Shown one piece after another: positions 3,127 through 11,610 of a DNA stretch of 64,000 nucleotides. The stretch covers positions 1,101,398 to 1,165,397 of the forward strand of contig BPGU01000001.1 in NCBI GenBank assembly GCA_026003195.1, read 5' to 3'. The DNA is from Armatimonadota bacterium. Lineage in GTDB: Bacteria > Armatimonadota > HRBIN16. The translations under genes and the position numbers were made by a program. The notes under the pieces were generated by a model. It made no database searches and had not been told where the DNA came from. It worked only from the letters and a program-made list of their open reading frames with translations. Every line of letters starts with the position of its first letter. Position 1 is the first letter of the stretch.

Positions 3127-5667
3127 CTACCTCCACCCCTTGTGTCCTATCTTCTCTACTGGTATCGCCCGAAAACCCAGTTTCCACGCTGGCGAATCGG
3201 GACGCAGACGGTAGTCGTCCTTCTCCGGAGCGACGAAGAGCGGGTCGTTAATCAGCGAATGGGCGTCGAAACCCGCCTTCTGCCAGTCCTCAAAGTCGCC
3301 CAGAGGTGTGATACGTCGATGGAGTTGTCGCAAATCGGCACCGCGCAGCCAGTACAGGTTATAATCCCACTCTGCGAAGCGGTCACGCCGATTGTCCCAC
3401 GAGAAGATAAGCGTGGCTTCAGGCTTGGAGTAGACGATAATGTTGCGCACGAAGCGGTTGCCCTGCATGAAGTCGTCGCGCGGCTGCAGGCGAATCTGCT
3501 CAACAGAGGCATCTACGAAGACGTTGTTTTCGAATACGTTGTTTTTGCCTCCGTGCACGCAGATACCACCGTTCACCGTACGCGCCACGATGTTACCCAA
3601 GACGGTAGTGCCGCTGCTGTAGTCATCCAGATAGATGCCCCAGGTGAAGTACGGGGTGACGATTTTGCCGTCAGGCGTGCTAATCATGCCCACCGAGTCC
3701 AGAATCAGGTTATAGCGGATGATGTTGCCGGTGTCCTGCTGGTCTCTGCCCAGAGTCTCTATCGCGCCCGTGTCGTTGGTCTCCAGGTTCGTACGGCGCA
3801 GGTCATTATACTCCACGATGTTGCGGTGTGACTGGCGCGTGGGGTCCAGCGTCTTCAGCGAGATGGCGTATCGAGGGGTATCCCATATCGTGTTGTGCGC
3901 GATGCGGTTTTCACTACCTGTGATGACATATACCCCCGCCACATGTTTGTATATCAGCCCCAGCCGCTGCATGACGTTGCCTGCGACGAGGTTGCGGCGC
4001 GGCTGGCTGGCGTTGTCGCCGACGAGGATGACGCCCCCCTGCCCCACGTCCTCCACACGGTTCTTCACGAACTGGATGCGCTCACTCCGTTCCTCCAGCC
4101 GTAGCGCATAGCCGCCCGTCCAGCGAAACGTGCAGCCCGACACCACGCAATCGCGCGCGCCAGACATCCATATCACTGCATCCGCAGGCATGTAGTAGTT
4201 GGTGGTGAGTGTGTAATTGGTATCCATGAAGGTAAATCCCTCGAAGCGCAGATGCTCCACCCACCTGCCCTGTTCCGGTTCACCCTTCAGCACAATCAGG
4301 CGGTCTAACCGCGCCAGCACAGCAGGCTCAGCAGGTGGTGGGTTACCCTCGGCGAGATAGAGCAGCTCGCCCTTTTGCCTGTCCAGATACCACTCGTTGG
4401 GAGCGTCCAGCGCTTCGCGCACCCCTTCGATGAAATAGCGGTTGCCGAGGCGGATGTCGTCGGTATAACCGTCGGGCGGAAGGAGAACCCTGCGGGTATC
4501 GTAGTCGATGCGCACCACGGGGGCGATGGCGTTCACCCATCCCCACGCGGGAAAGATGTGCAGTTCCGCTCCCGAGATATCTTTCCAGCGCGGAAGATCG
4601 CCCTCGCGAAACACCAGGTACTGCCGGGAACCCGCAGGCTGGGGTGTCGCTACAGTGATTTCCTTGCCGATGGCTTCGTCGCACGCTTCCGCTTGAATCA
4701 AGAGAAGATGCCCTGTCTTCGGTTGATCGAGGCGGAACGCACCCCACCATTCGAAATCGCCGATTGCCTGTTTGGGGTCCCAGCTGGCGTCCTGTACCAG
4801 CGCAAGCGCATCCAGGTTCAGCCCACCGCCTTGCAGGTTTTTCCAGCGTAACGTGCGCTCCCCCGCCTGTAAGTGCAGTTCGGCAACCAGTGACCAGCGG
4901 AAGTTGCCCCACCCGCCAGTGTTGGGCAGGTTTCGCAGGGGTATTGCTTGGTCGTTGTCCACCTGTATGGCACACCGCCCGCTCATGTCGAACGCATCGC
5001 CCGCGTTATCCGCCGCGTAGCGCATCCAGAGACGATACCTGCCGGTTTCTGGCACGCGGATGCGCCATACCAGCGTGTCGCCCGGATGGTGAATGTTGCC
5101 CACCCCCTGTCCAAAAACGCCACGCTCCCACCGCTCGCCGTGAAAGTCGGCGAACAGCCAGCCACCTGTGAGCGGATTCTGGGCATCGAAGTTCGGGTGA
5201 CGCGCGCGTATTGCCCAGCGATTACCCAGACGGAGCAAACGAGGGGTTTCTCCCATGCTCAGGGCATCGGGAACGCTTACAGACCAGAGGTTATTCCGTA
5301 CCTTTCGCCAGCCGGACAGGGGCACTCCACCGCTCAGTACGACTGTGCCCACCTTCGCAGCACGGTAAACCACAGGCGCGTCGGGAGTGCCCGAGTCTTC
5401 GGGCGTGAACACCAGAGGCTCTTTCAGGTAGTAGGTGCCCTGCCCTACCACCACCTCCACCGGCTGACGTAGCCCCTGCCTTTTCAACTCTCGCACCGCC
5501 CTTTGGGCGCGCTGCAGGGTGGCAAAGGGTCCGTCCGTTCGGCGGGCGTTTGGTCGCTCCAGCCTGCCCGACCACGAATCGCTGCCCCGTGGGGAGACAT
5601 AAAACCGCAACGGAGCCCCACCAGCAGCTATCGGCAACAATACTATCATGGCACACAGAGTCCTCAT
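3127..5667 (-). CDS. Secreted right-handed parallel beta-helix protein
   Basis: 846 residues with a signal peptide (MRTLCAMIVLLPIAAGG). The opening FYVSPRGSDSWSGR and GPFATLQRAQRAV are typical of the N-cap of secreted parallel beta-helix proteins (polysaccharide lyase or polysaccharide-binding type). The second half has rungs with N-rich turns: NRVEDVGQGGVILVGDN, NRIAHNTIWDT, NVFENNVFVD. Residues ~150-300 hold an inserted beta-sandwich (WRIRVPETGRYRLWMRY). The likely role is binding or cleaving extracellular polysaccharide; catalytic residues cannot be assigned. GGAGGAG lies just ahead of the ATG. The DUF4870 gene ends 20 bases upstream on the same strand, so the two are probably cotranscribed. 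Confidence 0.82.
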   Translation of the reverse strand: MRTLCAMIVLLPIAAGGAPLRFYVSPRGSDSWSGRLERPNARRTDGPFATLQRAQRAVRELKRQGLRQPVEVVVGQGTYYLKEPLVFTPEDSGTPDAPVVYRAAKVGTVVLSGGVPLSGWRKVRNNLWSVSVPDALSMGETPRLLRLGNRWAIRARHPNFDAQNPLTGGWLFADFHGERWERGVFGQGVGNIHHPGDTLVWRIRVPETGRYRLWMRYAADNAGDAFDMSGRCAIQVDNDQAIPLRNLPNTGGWGNFRWSLVAELHLQAGERTLRWKNLQGGGLNLDALALVQDASWDPKQAIGDFEWWGAFRLDQPKTGHLLLIQAEACDEAIGKEITVATPQPAGSRQYLVFREGDLPRWKDISGAELHIFPAWGWVNAIAPVVRIDYDTRRVLLPPDGYTDDIRLGNRYFIEGVREALDAPNEWYLDRQKGELLYLAEGNPPPAEPAVLARLDRLIVLKGEPEQGRWVEHLRFEGFTFMDTNYTLTTNYYMPADAVIWMSGARDCVVSGCTFRWTGGYALRLEERSERIQFVKNRVEDVGQGGVILVGDNASQPRRNLVAGNVMQRLGLIYKHVAGVYVITGSENRIAHNTIWDTPRYAISLKTLDPTRQSHRNIVEYNDLRRTNLETNDTGAIETLGRDQQDTGNIIRYNLILDSVGMISTPDGKIVTPYFTWGIYLDDYSSGTTVLGNIVARTVNGGICVHGGKNNVFENNVFVDASVEQIRLQPRDDFMQGNRFVRNIIVYSKPEATLIFSWDNRRDRFAEWDYNLYWLRGADLRQLHRRITPLGDFEDWQKAGFDAHSLINDPLFVAPEKDDYRLRPDSPAWKLGFRAIPVEKIGHKGWR

Positions 5668-5687: not shown

Positions 5688-6035
5688 CTACTCCTTCACG
5701 AAACGAATGTTGAGCGGATAGCGATACACTTCGCCCCTGCCTGCGGCGAGAATGCCCAGGATCATCACCACAATCTGAAAGATAGCCAGAGCGATGAAGA
5801 GCACAAGACCTATTAGCACAAAGGTCAGCAAAAAGGCAACAACCCAGTAGATGAGCATGGTAATCTGGAAATTGAGCACTTCCGTGGCGGTACGTCGGAC
5901 GAAATCCGAATCTTTTCCCACCGTCAGCATCAGCACGAGCGGCAGAATAATGTTCCCCAGCAGTACCACTGTGGCGAGCGGGGCGAGGTGGCAGACAATC
6001 GCCCATGTGGTTTCACTGGAAGATGGCTGAGACAT
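5688..6035 (-). CDS. DUF4870 (Tic20-like) membrane protein
   Basis: 115 residues with the DUF4870 pattern: an N-terminal TTWAIVCHLAPLATVV helix, the charged loop GKDSDFVRRTATEVLNFQ, two long hydrophobic helices (LLTFVLIGLVLFIALAIF) and a C-terminal amphipathic stretch ending in PLNIRFVKE. The family has a Tic20-like fold and lies in the cytoplasmic membrane; its function is unknown. GGGGGAGGG serves as RBS ahead of the ATG. It is first in a two-gene unit with the beta-helix protein. Confidence 0.88.
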   Translation of the reverse strand: MSQPSSSETTWAIVCHLAPLATVVLLGNIILPLVLMLTVGKDSDFVRRTATEVLNFQITMLIYWVVAFLLTFVLIGLVLFIALAIFQIVVMILGILAAGRGEVYRYPLNIRFVKE

Positions 6036-6098
6036 CGATGAGCCCTCCCCCTGCGTAAAGAGTCAATAGAGGGTTCAACACGGCTCGCCGTTTTCCTC

Positions 6099-6139
6099 TT
6101 ACAATGCCCCTGCTCCCTCCGCGAGGGCATCCTTCAGCC
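6099..6139 (-). repeat. Displaced copy of the glnD 3' end
   Basis: Read on the minus strand this encodes LKDALAEGAGAL plus a stop codon; the functional glnD end at 6544-6584 encodes LRDALAEGAGAL. The 41-base copies differ at seven positions; all changes are synonymous except one Lys/Arg. Similarity stops upstream of the leucine codon. The pattern resembles the scar left when an inserting element supplies a new 3' end for its target gene. Confidence 0.8.
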
Positions 6140-6155
6140 AGGAGGTGGATGATTT

Positions 6156-6228
6156 ACCGCAGAGAGCGCGGAGGACGCAGAGAGGGCTTGCTGTGAAGAA
6201 AAATCCCTGCGTGCTCAGCGGATTTTGT
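6156..6228. repeat. GCAGAG-rich fold-back repeat
   Basis: Bases 6156-6185 are built from CGCAGAG-like units; 6204-6224 hold a partly complementary TCCCTGCG...CAGCGGA arm, so the stretch can fold back. Similar CGCAGAG minirepeats are scattered in intergenic DNA of many bacteria. It lies between the two glnD 3' ends. No coding sense is seen. Confidence 0.4.
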
Positions 6229-6237
6229 TCCCCCGGG

Positions 6238-6474
6238 CTAGCCCAACCAGTTCTTCACCTTATAAGCCAATATCGGGAACAGGCCGAGCAATATCTCCAG
6301 TTCTACAATGTTTGCCGCCTGCCGGCGACTGTAATACACCATGTGCCACAGTTCACCCACGACCGGTGCACAAAGATAGACTGTACCGTCCATGCTATTG
6401 ATTCTGTCGAGAAGTTTCGGCTCTCCACGCCATATCCCGCTAACGTGGTTGGTGTCCATCAGGTAACGGCTCAT
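6238..6474 (-). pseudogene. Truncated PIN-domain (VapC-like) gene
   Basis: About 78 residues from MSRYLMDTNHVSG, which has the first PIN acidic residue (MDTN). CAPVVGELW has the second (E). The protein ends at ILAYKVKNWLG, where intact VapC proteins of ~130 residues still need the segment with the third and fourth acidic residues (usually around ND.LIAA). It is therefore probably inactive. The ATG at 6474 is preferred over upstream codons because the PIN core begins there and AAGGGA precedes it. No VapB-type antitoxin gene is next to it. It sits inside the 404-base segment between the two glnD 3' ends. Confidence 0.7.
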
Positions 6475-6543
6475 TGAACTTCCCTTTCTCGCCACCTTGC
6501 CTCGATTATGCCTGAACTTATGGTTCACTTCTTCAGATTTGCT

Positions 6544-9240
6544 TTACAGCGCACCTGCTCCCTCTGCGAGAGCGTCCCTCAGCCTCTGGGCATCCGCGCG
6601 GATTTTGTTGCCTTCGGCGTCGGTGATATAGAAGACGCCCACCGCCTTACCTGCCCATGTGCTGAGCTTGGCACTGTGGATGTTCCATCCTAGCTGCGAC
6701 AGCGCGCGACATACCCAGTACAGCATCCCGATATGTTCTGTGGTGCGCACCTCAATCACCGTGAACTGTTCCGAGAGATCGTGGTGAATCACCAGGCTCA
6801 CCAACTCGGGGGGCGTTTGCTCCACGCGCCTGCGCCGCCTGAGTAATTCGACGACCGACATCTCACCGGTCAACACTGCTACCATGTTCTCTTCTATTTC
6901 GGCTCGCTTGGAGGGCGGAATGGGACGACCGCGATAGTCTACCCACAGGGTATCCAGTGCGATTTTGATTTCTCCCGAACGGGTGAACACGTTCGCCGCG
7001 TGTACTGCCACCTGCCCCGCGTACAACACCCCCGCAATCTTCGCCAGCAGACCGGGTTCGGGGTCGTCTATTGCGCAGACAGTGAGCTCGGTCACCGAAG
7101 CATCGGGAGGCGTCTGGAAAGCGAGTTGCGGTACGCCCTTCATCGCCTCCTGCACCATGCGGATATGCAAGCCGATTTGCTCCTGGGGTGTGTTGAGCAG
7201 GTAGGTTGCTGGCATTTGATTCAGATGGCGTGCCACCAGGTCCTCCGGGAGGTTTTCCAGGCTCAGCTCCTTCGCCAGCCTGCGCCGGAACCGACCGATG
7301 TCGGGCGGGGCGTGTTCTACCGCCTCCGAAGCCATCAGGAAACGCTCCGCTTTGCGGTGCAGTTCGCGCAGGAACGCTGCTTTCACCTCCGTCCACTGTC
7401 CGCTACCAACAGCATGAGTGTCGGCGTATGTCAGGATGTACAGCATGTTCAATCGCTCTATGGTATCGACGGTGTGGACAAAATCGCGTATGGTTTCCTC
7501 TAGATTGAGGTCACGCAGCCGGGAGGTCTCCGCCATCAGCAGGTGATGTTTCACCAGAAACACCAGGTCGGCAATCGCGTCATCGCTGAGGTATAGCCGT
7601 TTCCCCACCTCCTGTGCCATCTGGGCGCCTGCCTCGGCGTGGTCTGCGTGTGGGTTCGCTTTGCCGGCGTCGTGCAACAGCGCAGCCAGATACAGCACCT
7701 CACGGTGCGGCGTTTCCTGAAAGATACGCCGGTAGTCGGCGTAGTTGGGGTCGGTGATGGAGCTCAACGCTTCGATATTCTCTACCACGCGCAGGGTATG
7801 TTCCCCTACGGTGAAGTCGTGCGATGGATCGTAGGGAATCAGCGTGCGCGTTGCTTCAAACTCGGGCAGAATCCACCCCAGCACGCCCGTGTCCGCCATC
7901 TGTCGCAAGGCGCGCGCCACCCCGCCGGGAGCGCGGAGGATGGAGAGAAACGTCTCCGCCAGGTGTTTGGGGTCATGCGTTGTCGGTTTCTGCCCAACGG
8001 TGTGACGCATCAGCCGCTGCAGAGGTATGCTGAGGCGCAGCTCATATTCTTGCGCCAGTCGCACCGCCCACACCATCCACGCAGGGTCTTCACGCAGCAG
8101 AAGGTTTTGCGCCGGTACCACCTCCTGGCGCTCGCTGTCCAGTCCAATGCCCAGTACGTGTCGTCCCTGCTCGACGCGATGTATCACTTCCTCACAGATT
8201 CGGTGTGCATTGACAGCGTGCAGATAATAATCGTGCATGAACTGCTCCACAGCAGGGGTGTGCTCACCGGGCAGGTATCCCAACCGGGAGGCGATTTGTT
8301 CTTGTTTGGCAGCAGTCAGCACATCTCGCTGTTCCCCTGCCAGGATGTGCAGGTGGTTGCGCACGCGCAGCAAAAACTCGTGTGCCTGAATCAGGCGGTC
8401 AGCGTCCTCTGGCGCAAGCCACTCGCGGGCGACCAGCTGTCCCCACTCCCCAGCGGTGGGTAGTCCTGCCCATCCCGTCGCTAACCACCGCACCAGGTGA
8501 ATATCGCGCAGTCCGCCGGCTCCCTCTTTAATGTTCGGCTCTACCAGGTAAGGCGTGGTGCCATACCGGGCGCGTATCTGTCGCCTCTCCATGATTTTGC
8601 GAAACAGAAAGTCGGTGGGATTGAAGTTTGCCCAGAACTCCTCCAGAAAACGGGCGAAGATATGACGGCTTCCCGTCACCAGTCGGGCATCCACAAGGGT
8701 GGTCTGGGTGGTGTGGTCCAGCGTTGCACAGTCTTCTATCAAACGATAGGCATAGCCCACCTTGAGGCGACCGTATTCCATCATGACATCCATGAGCAGG
8801 CGAAACATCTCACGGATAATGCGGTCGGTAGTGGCATCGCCGTCGCGTTCAGGAATGAAAGTGATGTCGATATCCGAGTGCGGTGAAAGTTCCATTCGCC
8901 CATATCCACCAGTGGCAGCCACAGCGACCTCTGGGGGATGTGCCACATGGGCACGCTGGATAGCAAGATGAAAGAGCCGACGCACCACAGCATCCGCTAA
9001 TGCGGTAAAGGAACGGCACGCACTCAGTCCATCATGGGGAGGCTGAATCTCACGCATGAGGTGTTCCCGCTGTTGCACTATCCACTGCCCGATTTCGCGG
9101 GCATCCTGCATGGCGTCTAGAGCCTGCATCCACTCCTCGCGCAGATGGACGGCGATGATGCTATCGCTGGATGGAACAACGTGAACCTCCTCCTGAGAAC
9201 CTACTGTTACCCCTTGTGTTTTGGTTTTCCAACGACTCAT
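6544..9240 (-). CDS. glnD: [Protein-PII] uridylyltransferase / uridylyl-removing enzyme
   Basis: 898 residues in the usual GlnD order. The nucleotidyltransferase motif GGYGRMELSPHSDIDI is at ~111-126. An HD domain with LLHDAGKA is at ~510. Two ACT domains are at ~710 and ~820 (VCAIDDPEPGLLAKIAG; EVRTTEHIGMLYWVCRAL). GlnD senses glutamine and adds or removes UMP on PII, so it controls nitrogen assimilation; both the transferase and HD residues look intact. It is last in the ribBA-to-glnD operon. Its RBS, GGAGTGAG, overlaps the corrected stop codon of the LptF/LptG gene six bases upstream. The 3' end is duplicated at 6099-6139. Confidence 0.95.
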   Translation of the reverse strand: MSRWKTKTQGVTVGSQEEVHVVPSSDSIIAVHLREEWMQALDAMQDAREIGQWIVQQREHLMREIQPPHDGLSACRSFTALADAVVRRLFHLAIQRAHVAHPPEVAVAATGGYGRMELSPHSDIDITFIPERDGDATTDRIIREMFRLLMDVMMEYGRLKVGYAYRLIEDCATLDHTTQTTLVDARLVTGSRHIFARFLEEFWANFNPTDFLFRKIMERRQIRARYGTTPYLVEPNIKEGAGGLRDIHLVRWLATGWAGLPTAGEWGQLVAREWLAPEDADRLIQAHEFLLRVRNHLHILAGEQRDVLTAAKQEQIASRLGYLPGEHTPAVEQFMHDYYLHAVNAHRICEEVIHRVEQGRHVLGIGLDSERQEVVPAQNLLLREDPAWMVWAVRLAQEYELRLSIPLQRLMRHTVGQKPTTHDPKHLAETFLSILRAPGGVARALRQMADTGVLGWILPEFEATRTLIPYDPSHDFTVGEHTLRVVENIEALSSITDPNYADYRRIFQETPHREVLYLAALLHDAGKANPHADHAEAGAQMAQEVGKRLYLSDDAIADLVFLVKHHLLMAETSRLRDLNLEETIRDFVHTVDTIERLNMLYILTYADTHAVGSGQWTEVKAAFLRELHRKAERFLMASEAVEHAPPDIGRFRRRLAKELSLENLPEDLVARHLNQMPATYLLNTPQEQIGLHIRMVQEAMKGVPQLAFQTPPDASVTELTVCAIDDPEPGLLAKIAGVLYAGQVAVHAANVFTRSGEIKIALDTLWVDYRGRPIPPSKRAEIEENMVAVLTGEMSVVELLRRRRRVEQTPPELVSLVIHHDLSEQFTVIEVRTTEHIGMLYWVCRALSQLGWNIHSAKLSTWAGKAVGVFYITDAEGNKIRADAQRLRDALAEGAGAL

Positions 9241-9246
9241 TTTTTC

Positions 9247-10321
9247 TCACTCCGACCGCCACAGGATCAGTAGCCCCACGGCAGCAAATAAAGCGTTTGG
9301 TGCCCATGCAGCAACCACTGGCGGCAAGAACCCTTGATTGCCTAGCAGTCGCGCCAGCAGCAGAGTATTCCAGAACAGGAATACGAGAATAATCGCCAGC
9401 AACACTCCCATGAAGCTGCCCGCACGAGCAAAAGTGAGTGCCAGCGGTGCGCTGCACAGGGCAAATACCGCGCACGCGAAGGGAATAGAATACTTGAAAT
9501 AGTACCCCCACCCATAATCGTGTTGCAGGCAACCCCGCCTTTTCCAGCTCTCGCGCCTGGCGGCGCAGCTCCGCTGCGTTGGTCTCCTCGGGGGATGGCG
9601 GGCTGAGCAGCTCTTCCAGCGCGACTCTCAGGTTGATGGTGATTTCTCCGGCAGCGCGTGCATCGATGGCGAAACCATCCTGCCCGTAGATGTGCACATG
9701 CGCGTCGTAGAAACGCCATATCCCGTCGTCGTACACCGCACGCGGCGCCAGTATCGTGCGCGCATAGCCGGTTACGGGCATTTCCCATACCTGAACATCT
9801 CGCAGATGCGCCCGGTTTCCACGCACGTTTTCCACCATGCCGATGTAGAAAGCATAGTCGCCTACCTTGAACACCACGTTGGAGCGAAACAGCGGCGCAG
9901 TCTGCATCAGGAAAATGCGGTCACGGACGCGGCGAAACTGTCGCTCCGCATGTGGAACCACCGACTCCTCAAGCCAGAAGTTTACCACAGAAACCACCAC
10001 TCCTGCCACCAGTAGGGGCAGAAAGATGCGCCAGAGACTGGCTCCAGCGTTGCGCAGCACCACGATTTCCAAATCTCTCGCCAGCCGGTTCACCGCTAGC
10101 GACACAGAAAGCGCAGTCGCTACGGGCAGGGTGAGCACCAGCAGGAAGGGAGTGTGATACACAATCATCTGTGCTACAGCGAGCAACGGCACGCCCTTCG
10201 AGAAGAGCACCTCCGCGTAGAAGAAGAGCATATTGCCGATAAGCATCAACACCACTGCCAGCGTGCCCACCAGAAAGGGCACCAGCAGCTCAGACAACAA
10301 CAGGCGGTCTATCAGCTTCAT
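9247..10321 (-). CDS. LptF/LptG (YjgP/YjgQ) family permease, frameshifted
   Basis: Start ATG (10319-10321) overlaps the hom stop in ATGA. The frame runs MKLIDRLLLSELLVPFLVG through the N-terminal membrane helices and the periplasmic beta-rich domain to LPATRLWVG. There the frame breaks at a run of five C (plus strand 9505-9509). Removing one base restores YYFKYSIPFACAVFAL, GSFMGVLLAIILV and LLILWRSE, the expected last three helices, ending at 9247. Corrected length is ~357, normal for the family. Such permeases pull lipopolysaccharide from the inner membrane together with LptB. As read, the protein would lack its C-terminal helices. An assembly error at the homopolymer is as likely as true decay. 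Confidence 0.85.
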
Positions 10322-11610
10322 TCTTCCACGCGAATGGTGTTGCACACGTCCATCACGACGGGTAAACGTCGGATTTCGGCGGTTGCATGGCGTATTGCGC
10401 CCTCCTGGGTGCGGTGCGTAATCCACACAATCTCCGCTTCCTGGGGGGTCACCTGCTTCTGTACCACCGAGGAGATGCTGATGTGGTGAATGCCGAACAC
10501 ACTGGCTACCTGTGCCAGCACATTCGGACGGTCCTGCACGCGCATCCGCACATAGTAGCTGGTCTCGATCTGCTCGATGGGAACCACGTACCGCTGGTCA
10601 AAACAGGTGCAGCCCACGCGCCCCGTGGAGCCGAACAGCAGGTTGCGCGAAACGTCAATAATATCCCCTACCACTGCGCTACCGGTGGGGAGGCTACCTG
10701 CACCGCGCCCGTAGAACATCACATCGCCCACCGCGTCCCCACGTACCATGATGGCATTATACACATCACGCACGCTTGCTAGCGGATGCGACAGGGGCAG
10801 CAGCGCTGGATGCACACGCACCTGCACCGCTTTGTGGGAAACCTCCTGCGCTATCGCCACCAGCTTGATAGCATACCCCAGTCGGTTCGCCCACTCCATG
10901 TCGGAGCGTGTGATACGGGTGATGCCCTCGCAATACACATCGTCTACCTTGACACGGGCGGTAAAGGCGATAGAGGCAAGAATGGCTATCTTATATTGAG
11001 CATCATGCCCATTGACGTCCGCGCTGGGGTCAGCCTCCGCATAACCCTGTGCCTGCGCCTCTTTCAGTGCCTGATCGAAATCGGTGCCCTCTTCCGCCAT
11101 CTTTGTCAGAATATAGTTGGTAGTGCCGTTGACAATACCCATGACCCGCTCAATGCGGTTACCTGCCAGCGCGTTCTTCATGGGCTGGATAATGGGGATA
11201 CCCCCGCCGACGCTTCCTTCAAAGGCGAAGTCCAGCTGACACTTGCCTGCGGCGGTCATGATGTCGGCGCCCTCTTTGGCGAGCAGCTCTTTATTCGCGC
11301 TCACCACTGGCTTGCCGTTCTCCAGAGCGCGCAACACATACTCCTTAGCAGGGTGCACGCCGCCGATCAGCTCCACGACGATGTCTATCTGTGGGTCATC
11401 GATGACCTCGTAGGCGTTGTTCGTTAGCAGAGAGCGGTCTACAGGCACACGACGGGGCTTGCTCACATCGCGCACAGCGATGCGACGGATTTCCAAGCGC
11501 GCACCTATCTTGCGTTCGATGCTTTCACGGTTGCGTCGCAGCACCTCCACCGTGCCCGATCCCACCACACCCAGCCCCAAGATGCCCAGCTGGATCACCT
11601 CTTTGCTCAC
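10318..11610 (-). CDS. hom: Homoserine dehydrogenase
   Basis: 430 residues from the GTG at 11608-11610, where the stop of the biotin carrier gene overlaps in GTGA. It starts VSKEVIQLGILGLGVVGSG, the NAD(P)-binding GxGxxG motif. The catalytic domain includes EGSVGGGIPIIQP and GIVNGTTNYIL, and a C-terminal ACT domain begins near YVRMRVQDRPNVLAQVASVF. It reduces aspartate semialdehyde to homoserine for threonine and methionine synthesis. The ACT domain suggests feedback inhibition by an amino acid. Its place in an operon with rib, acc, lpt and glnD genes looks like growth-linked housekeeping rather than a threonine operon. Confidence 0.95.
   Translation of the reverse strand: MSKEVIQLGILGLGVVGSGTVEVLRRNRESIERKIGARLEIRRIAVRDVSKPRRVPVDRSLLTNNAYEVIDDPQIDIVVELIGGVHPAKEYVLRALENGKPVVSANKELLAKEGADIMTAAGKCQLDFAFEGSVGGGIPIIQPMKNALAGNRIERVMGIVNGTTNYILTKMAEEGTDFDQALKEAQAQGYAEADPSADVNGHDAQYKIAILASIAFTARVKVDDVYCEGITRITRSDMEWANRLGYAIKLVAIAQEVSHKAVQVRVHPALLPLSHPLASVRDVYNAIMVRGDAVGDVMFYGRGAGSLPTGSAVVGDIIDVSRNLLFGSTGRVGCTCFDQRYVVPIEQIETSYYVRMRVQDRPNVLAQVASVFGIHHISISSVVQKQVTPQEAEIVWITHRTQEGAIRHATAEIRRLPVVMDVCNTIRVEE

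Follow-up and report, generated by a model that had tools for sequence, protein, structure and literature searches.

Introduction

Why does the glnD gene of this Armatimonadota bacterium end twice? Duplicate gene ends that carry silent differences are often taken as the footprints of integrating elements. Elements that enter the 3' ends of protein genes, such as e14 in icd, bring a new end with silent changes and push the old end downstream. The initial annotation read the glnD locus in this way. We examined this interpretation in the window, the whole stretch of 64,000 nucleotides analysed here, and in ten members of its genus, which belongs to the HRBIN16 group of the Armatimonadota: this genome (G000) and nine congeners (G001-G009).

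The two 3' ends of glnD

The glnD gene encodes a PII uridylyltransferase of 898 aa (Pfam GlnD_UR_UTase 5e-37) and lies on the minus strand at 6544-9240. A repeat search of the window returned its tail as a 41-nt direct repeat, 6099-6139 and 6544-6584, with 83% identity and a spacing of 445. The inner copy, 6544-6584, is the functional end of the gene, and the outer copy, also on the minus strand, corresponds to the last 13 codons, including the stop, of a displaced glnD 3' end. Codon comparison gave seven differences in these 13 codons, six silent and one R-to-K, exactly as the initial annotation had counted them. The differences are scattered across the 41 nt, and the longest run common to both tails is ~11 nt.

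The outer copy begins earlier than had been assumed. At 6222-6232, about codon -25 counted from the stop, GGGAACAAAAT represents the GNKI codons, and a second matching block (6598-6612 / 6218-6232) keeps the order of the first. The CCGC end of this block may belong to the GCAGAG fold-back repeat described below, with GGGAACAAAAT as the clear part of the match. The start of the displaced tail (6222-6237, minus strand) directly abuts the stop codon of a PIN gene, and GGGAACAAAATCCG at this position matches the glnD gene of G005 exactly. The PIN stop is thereby fused to about codon -25 of glnD in a non-homologous joint, at which no microhomology of note was found.

A search for a second glnD tail gave none elsewhere in this genome and none in the nine congeners, including G007 and G002 with its 9.7-kb interval, several of these contigs ending early. 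When the 531-bp region was compared with its own genome, it matched only itself and one GCAGAG copy; the double end is therefore due neither to chance nor to a common repeat, and is a real feature. A tRNA-type attachment site was discarded as a candidate, the window containing no tRNA.

The segment between the two ends

From the inner glnD stop, the 404-base segment between the copies starts with AGCAAA, a remnant of the normal glnD flank, followed first by TGAAGAAGTGA, next by a leader homologous to the toxin-antitoxin leader of G003, and finally by the PIN gene. The alignment of this inner flank (6474-6543, minus strand) to the G003 leader reached p 0.0005 against shuffles and p 0.001 against random genomic windows. 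In G003 the counterpart of TGAAGAAGTGA is TGAAGGAGTGA, the end of a DUF4870 gene, and the inner flank appears to retain the same gene end, a reading based on 11 nt inside the longer significant alignment. The antitoxin gene has been deleted.

The sole gene content of the segment is the remnant of a VapC-like PIN toxin gene (6238-6474, minus strand; Pfam PIN 4.5e-4), which matches the intact G007 gene at 79% over 72 aa. Its truncation, already recognized by the initial annotation, is an internal in-frame deletion that leaves 78 aa from the ATG, compared with 131 aa in a relative. Measured against this relative, the residues between LAY and the C-terminal KVKNWLG are gone, a loss that reaches from residue 71 up to, but not into, the last seven residues and includes the conserved acidic C-terminal part. 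Because a remnant of a chromosomal gene, DUF4870, lies inside it, the segment is, judged by its sequence, a decayed version of what ordinarily adjoins glnD in another allele, consisting of the DUF4870-tail remnant, the toxin-antitoxin leader and the deleted PIN gene.

The GCAGAG fold-back repeat (6153-6221), likewise noted before, is a real, dispersed repeat with at least 5 copies in the genome at <=3 mismatches (reversed-pattern control, 0). It is inserted in the displaced glnD tail and splits it, with GGGAACAAAAT on one side and the 41-base part on the other. Further copies (CACCGCAGAG...CTCAGCGGTG) are present in this genome at C1:641794, 932013 and 1287313 and at C3:142855; the copies seen are often close to gene ends, and the predicted fold is weak (z -1.95 for the copy at glnD).

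The outer flank and the downstream genes

Behind the outer copy lies the normal downstream flank of glnD in the genus (AGGAAAAC...GTGTTGAACCC; 6036-6098, minus strand), which matches the sequence directly behind the single glnD stop in G009 (p~0.007) and G003 (p~0.006). The earlier statement that one glnD end was displaced downstream is supported. G009 and G003 also provide the empty site that the initial annotation had predicted, in which a single end adjoins the outer flank. Such a site cannot tell the old end from the new one, because both alleles are orthologous and share the same flank.

Further downstream follow a DUF4870 gene (5688-6035, minus strand; Pfam 7.2e-32) and a right-handed beta-helix gene (3127-5667, minus strand), the latter a conserved downstream neighbour in G009, G003, G002, G008 and G004. 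Among the genomes of the genus, DUF4870 is intact only here and in G008, and no living example was found in which an intact DUF4870 adjoins a toxin-antitoxin pair. The remnant in the inner flank ends with TGA, as in G003, and the intact gene beyond the outer copy with TAG, as in G008, which therefore points to two alleles.

The interval behind glnD in the genus

The interval behind glnD differs in 10 out of 10 genomes. The beta-helix gene follows after 53 bases in G009 and after about 100 bases in G004, and in G008 it is preceded by another gene and DUF4870. In G003, glnD is followed by a flank and by a DUF4870 remnant of 26 nt, 24 of them identical; next come an antitoxin-like gene, the final portion of a PIN gene and the beta-helix gene, so that the toxin-antitoxin pair is bordered by the DUF4870 remnant and the beta-helix gene and not by two glnD ends. 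Both G007 and G002 contain an antitoxin-like gene, a PIN gene, which carries a stop codon in G002, and then a DUF1156 methyltransferase gene; in G002, DUF499 and helicase genes come next, with matches to PADLOC HmaB, HmaC and HmaA. A laminin-G-like gene is found after glnD in G005, Uma2 directly after it in G001, and other genes in G006. The far border of the interval is formed in most genomes by Uma2 and a large GH-like gene. No integrase match was obtained in the 404-base segment or in the 9.7-kb interval of G002, the families of which are DUF1156, DUF499, helicase, methyltransferase and PIN.

Ancestry of the two tails

Over the 41 bases, the inner and outer tails differ at 7 positions, which falls inside the range of 2-18 among the glnD tails of the congeners. 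The inner tail is nearer than the outer to G005, the closest relative by most genes (4 vs 5 differences), and the distances to G003 are 6 for the outer and 9 for the inner tail. Four-point tests grouped the inner tail with G005 and the outer tail with G003 in 88%, or with G009 in 83%, of bootstraps. Inner and outer tails were never paired in quartets containing G005; quartets without G005 were indecisive. With moderate confidence, on an alignment of only 41 bp with few informative sites, the two tails appear to come from different lineages, the inner one with G005 and the outer one with G003/G009. For a duplicate formed in situ and neutral since then, the probability of <=1 non-silent change among 7 is about 0.045, in agreement with the earlier claim that both ends diverged while coding. 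Dating of the event by the substitutions in the outer stub was abandoned, as the sites are too few.

These data bear on an in-situ tandem duplication, in which glnD tail, DUF4870 and toxin-antitoxin pair would have been doubled within one chromosome and then reduced by deletions. The joint between the PIN end and glnD codon -25 does resemble a duplication junction, and the ancestral order may plausibly have been glnD - DUF4870 - toxin-antitoxin. Against this stand the separation of the tails in the four-point tests with G005, the coding-like divergence of the outer stub, and the second DUF4870, which ends with TAG and, like its G008 counterpart, is followed immediately by the beta-helix gene, with no trace of a second toxin-antitoxin pair. 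We regard a tandem duplication as unlikely.

A hybrid glnD gene

The body of glnD also combines two affinities. Nucleotides 411-1740 of the gene group with G007/G002 (99-100% of bootstraps) and nucleotides 1740-2694 with G005 (97-100%), with a change point (p=0.0002 vs G007 and vs G002) near gene nt 1740, about window position 7500. By these groupings, the glnD of this genome is a hybrid. The upstream homoserine dehydrogenase gene groups with G007/G002 (84-96%), and ribBA, Uma2 and the GH gene with G005 (100%). Between ribBA and the 5' part of glnD, the divergence of this genome from G005 rises abruptly, from 8% to about 20%, and the G005-G003 distance stays steady; hence this genome is probably the recombinant. 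The breakpoint at nt 1740 is itself strong; it may have been the homologous anchor of the tail event, or it may be a separate event. As a whole, window 7500-11600 is a mosaic tract of several kb, in which homoserine dehydrogenase and the 5' half of glnD are G007/G002-like, and ribBA and the 3' third of glnD are G005-like. In this uncultured genus of the Armatimonadota, the locus also shows a clear recombination breakpoint inside a core gene.

Probable recombination between two alleles of the locus

The different nearest lineages of the tails, the remnants of both neighbourhoods and the hybrid glnD are the observations on which we base our reading of the locus. We consider it likely that the double end is a scar left when two diverged alleles of one chromosomal locus recombined, through homologous sequence at one boundary and at non-corresponding positions at the other. 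One parent would have had, as G003 does, the order glnD - DUF4870 remnant - toxin-antitoxin pair, and the other glnD - flank - DUF4870 - beta-helix gene, the last two as in G008; the exact structure of either parent is found in none of the living genomes compared. At the unequal joint, sequence just behind the PIN stop would have been fused with the glnD of the second allele, at about its codon -25. On the opposite side, the exchange probably proceeded via homologous sequence, either by homology-facilitated illegitimate recombination or by a non-allelic template switch of equivalent effect. The outcome would be one intact glnD and, from the other allele, a 3' end left as a non-coding stub, which the GCAGAG repeat would have hit later, with the toxin-antitoxin pair decaying as well.

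Two directions of this exchange both fit, and we choose neither firmly. The glnD 3' part and the toxin-antitoxin pair may be the incomer, in which case the outer end would be the old one and the breakpoint at nt 1740 the anchor. Conversely, the G005-like inner end may be native, because ribBA, Uma2 and the GH gene are also G005-like; the outer tail, DUF4870 and the beta-helix gene would then be the incomer, anchored further down. The beta-helix gene was rejected as a judge of direction: it groups with G003/G009 (97-99%) and is absent from G005, which fits both.

Other explanations of the locus

It is distinctly unlikely that the glnD end is a preferred landing place in this genus for toxin-antitoxin and defence cassettes, which would arrive by homologous exchange anchored in glnD, with the 3' end renewed at each arrival and no integrase involved.

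The reading of the initial annotation, a reduced integrating element that would attach at the glnD 3' end and bring its own replacement end, is very unlikely. The locus resembles e14 in icd in its complete inner end, the silent differences and the other end downstream, and there are cargo-like genes between the ends. The larger insertions at the same place that the annotation had envisaged were found in part: G002 and G007 do carry larger cargo there, comprising the toxin-antitoxin pair and Hma defence genes, but with a single glnD tail each and no integrase match in the G002 interval. Unlike e14 in icd, the glnD locus has neither an integrase, nor an identical core shared by the two copies, nor a second-ended element in relatives. 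The DUF4870 remnant and flank inside the segment are chromosomal, and the position of the toxin-antitoxin pair in G003 also speaks against a site-specific element.

An assembly chimera of two strains in the metagenome, suggested by an estimated contamination of 4.8% and by tails that look like two species, is highly improbable, as a misjoin at shared sequence would leave a single repeat copy and would not fuse two copies at a non-homologous point, and the contig spans 1.34 Mb with G005-like genes on both sides.

Relation to known systems

On the reading favoured here, the double end would be an example of a known process, gene exchange between species, and would not represent a novel type of mobile element. 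Homology-facilitated illegitimate recombination has been observed at low frequency in E. coli in a conjugation assay (PMC3240628) and has been put forward to explain the effector-immunity arrays of the type VI secretion system (T6SS) of Vibrio cholerae, in which the effector 3' end is shifted back (PMC5361080). As proposed here, the incoming allele in these arrays is anchored by homology on one side, with an illegitimate joint on the other and the old 3' end as a downstream stub. The present case differs in that glnD is a housekeeping gene, the stub bears no evident sign of selection and a decayed toxin-antitoxin pair forms the cargo. The C-terminal displacement with orphan tips in Rhs and CDI, as cited in the same paper, similarly leaves an orphaned 3' region behind a complete gene, but the Rhs/CDI terminus is a variable toxin tip and the GlnD C-terminus is conserved. 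Conserved neighbours around variable cargo, including defence genes, also characterize chromosomal gene-turnover hotspots (PMC5635113) and core defence hotspots (PMC10250203); our comparison, in contrast, covers only ten genomes and one locus. A footprint often ascribed to integration can, as the relatives show here, be left by ordinary interspecies exchange at a variable locus, and the usual empty-site test does not separate the two.

Toxin-antitoxin and defence genes at the locus

The locus collects toxin-antitoxin and defence genes. In G007 (locus L035, about 5976-6607), an ORF encoding a 79-aa protein lies directly upstream of the VapC-like PIN gene (Pfam 3.8e-18; VapC models below cut-off). 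The 79-aa protein gave no family match and possibly represents an undescribed antitoxin family; of the loci checked, the one at glnD alone contains it. In G002, an Hma-type defence cluster of ~9 kb (locus L036, 5520-14491) lies directly behind the toxin-antitoxin pair, with HmaB apparently split into two ORFs, followed by HmaC and HmaA; G007 likewise carries the start of this cluster, as far as its contig reaches.
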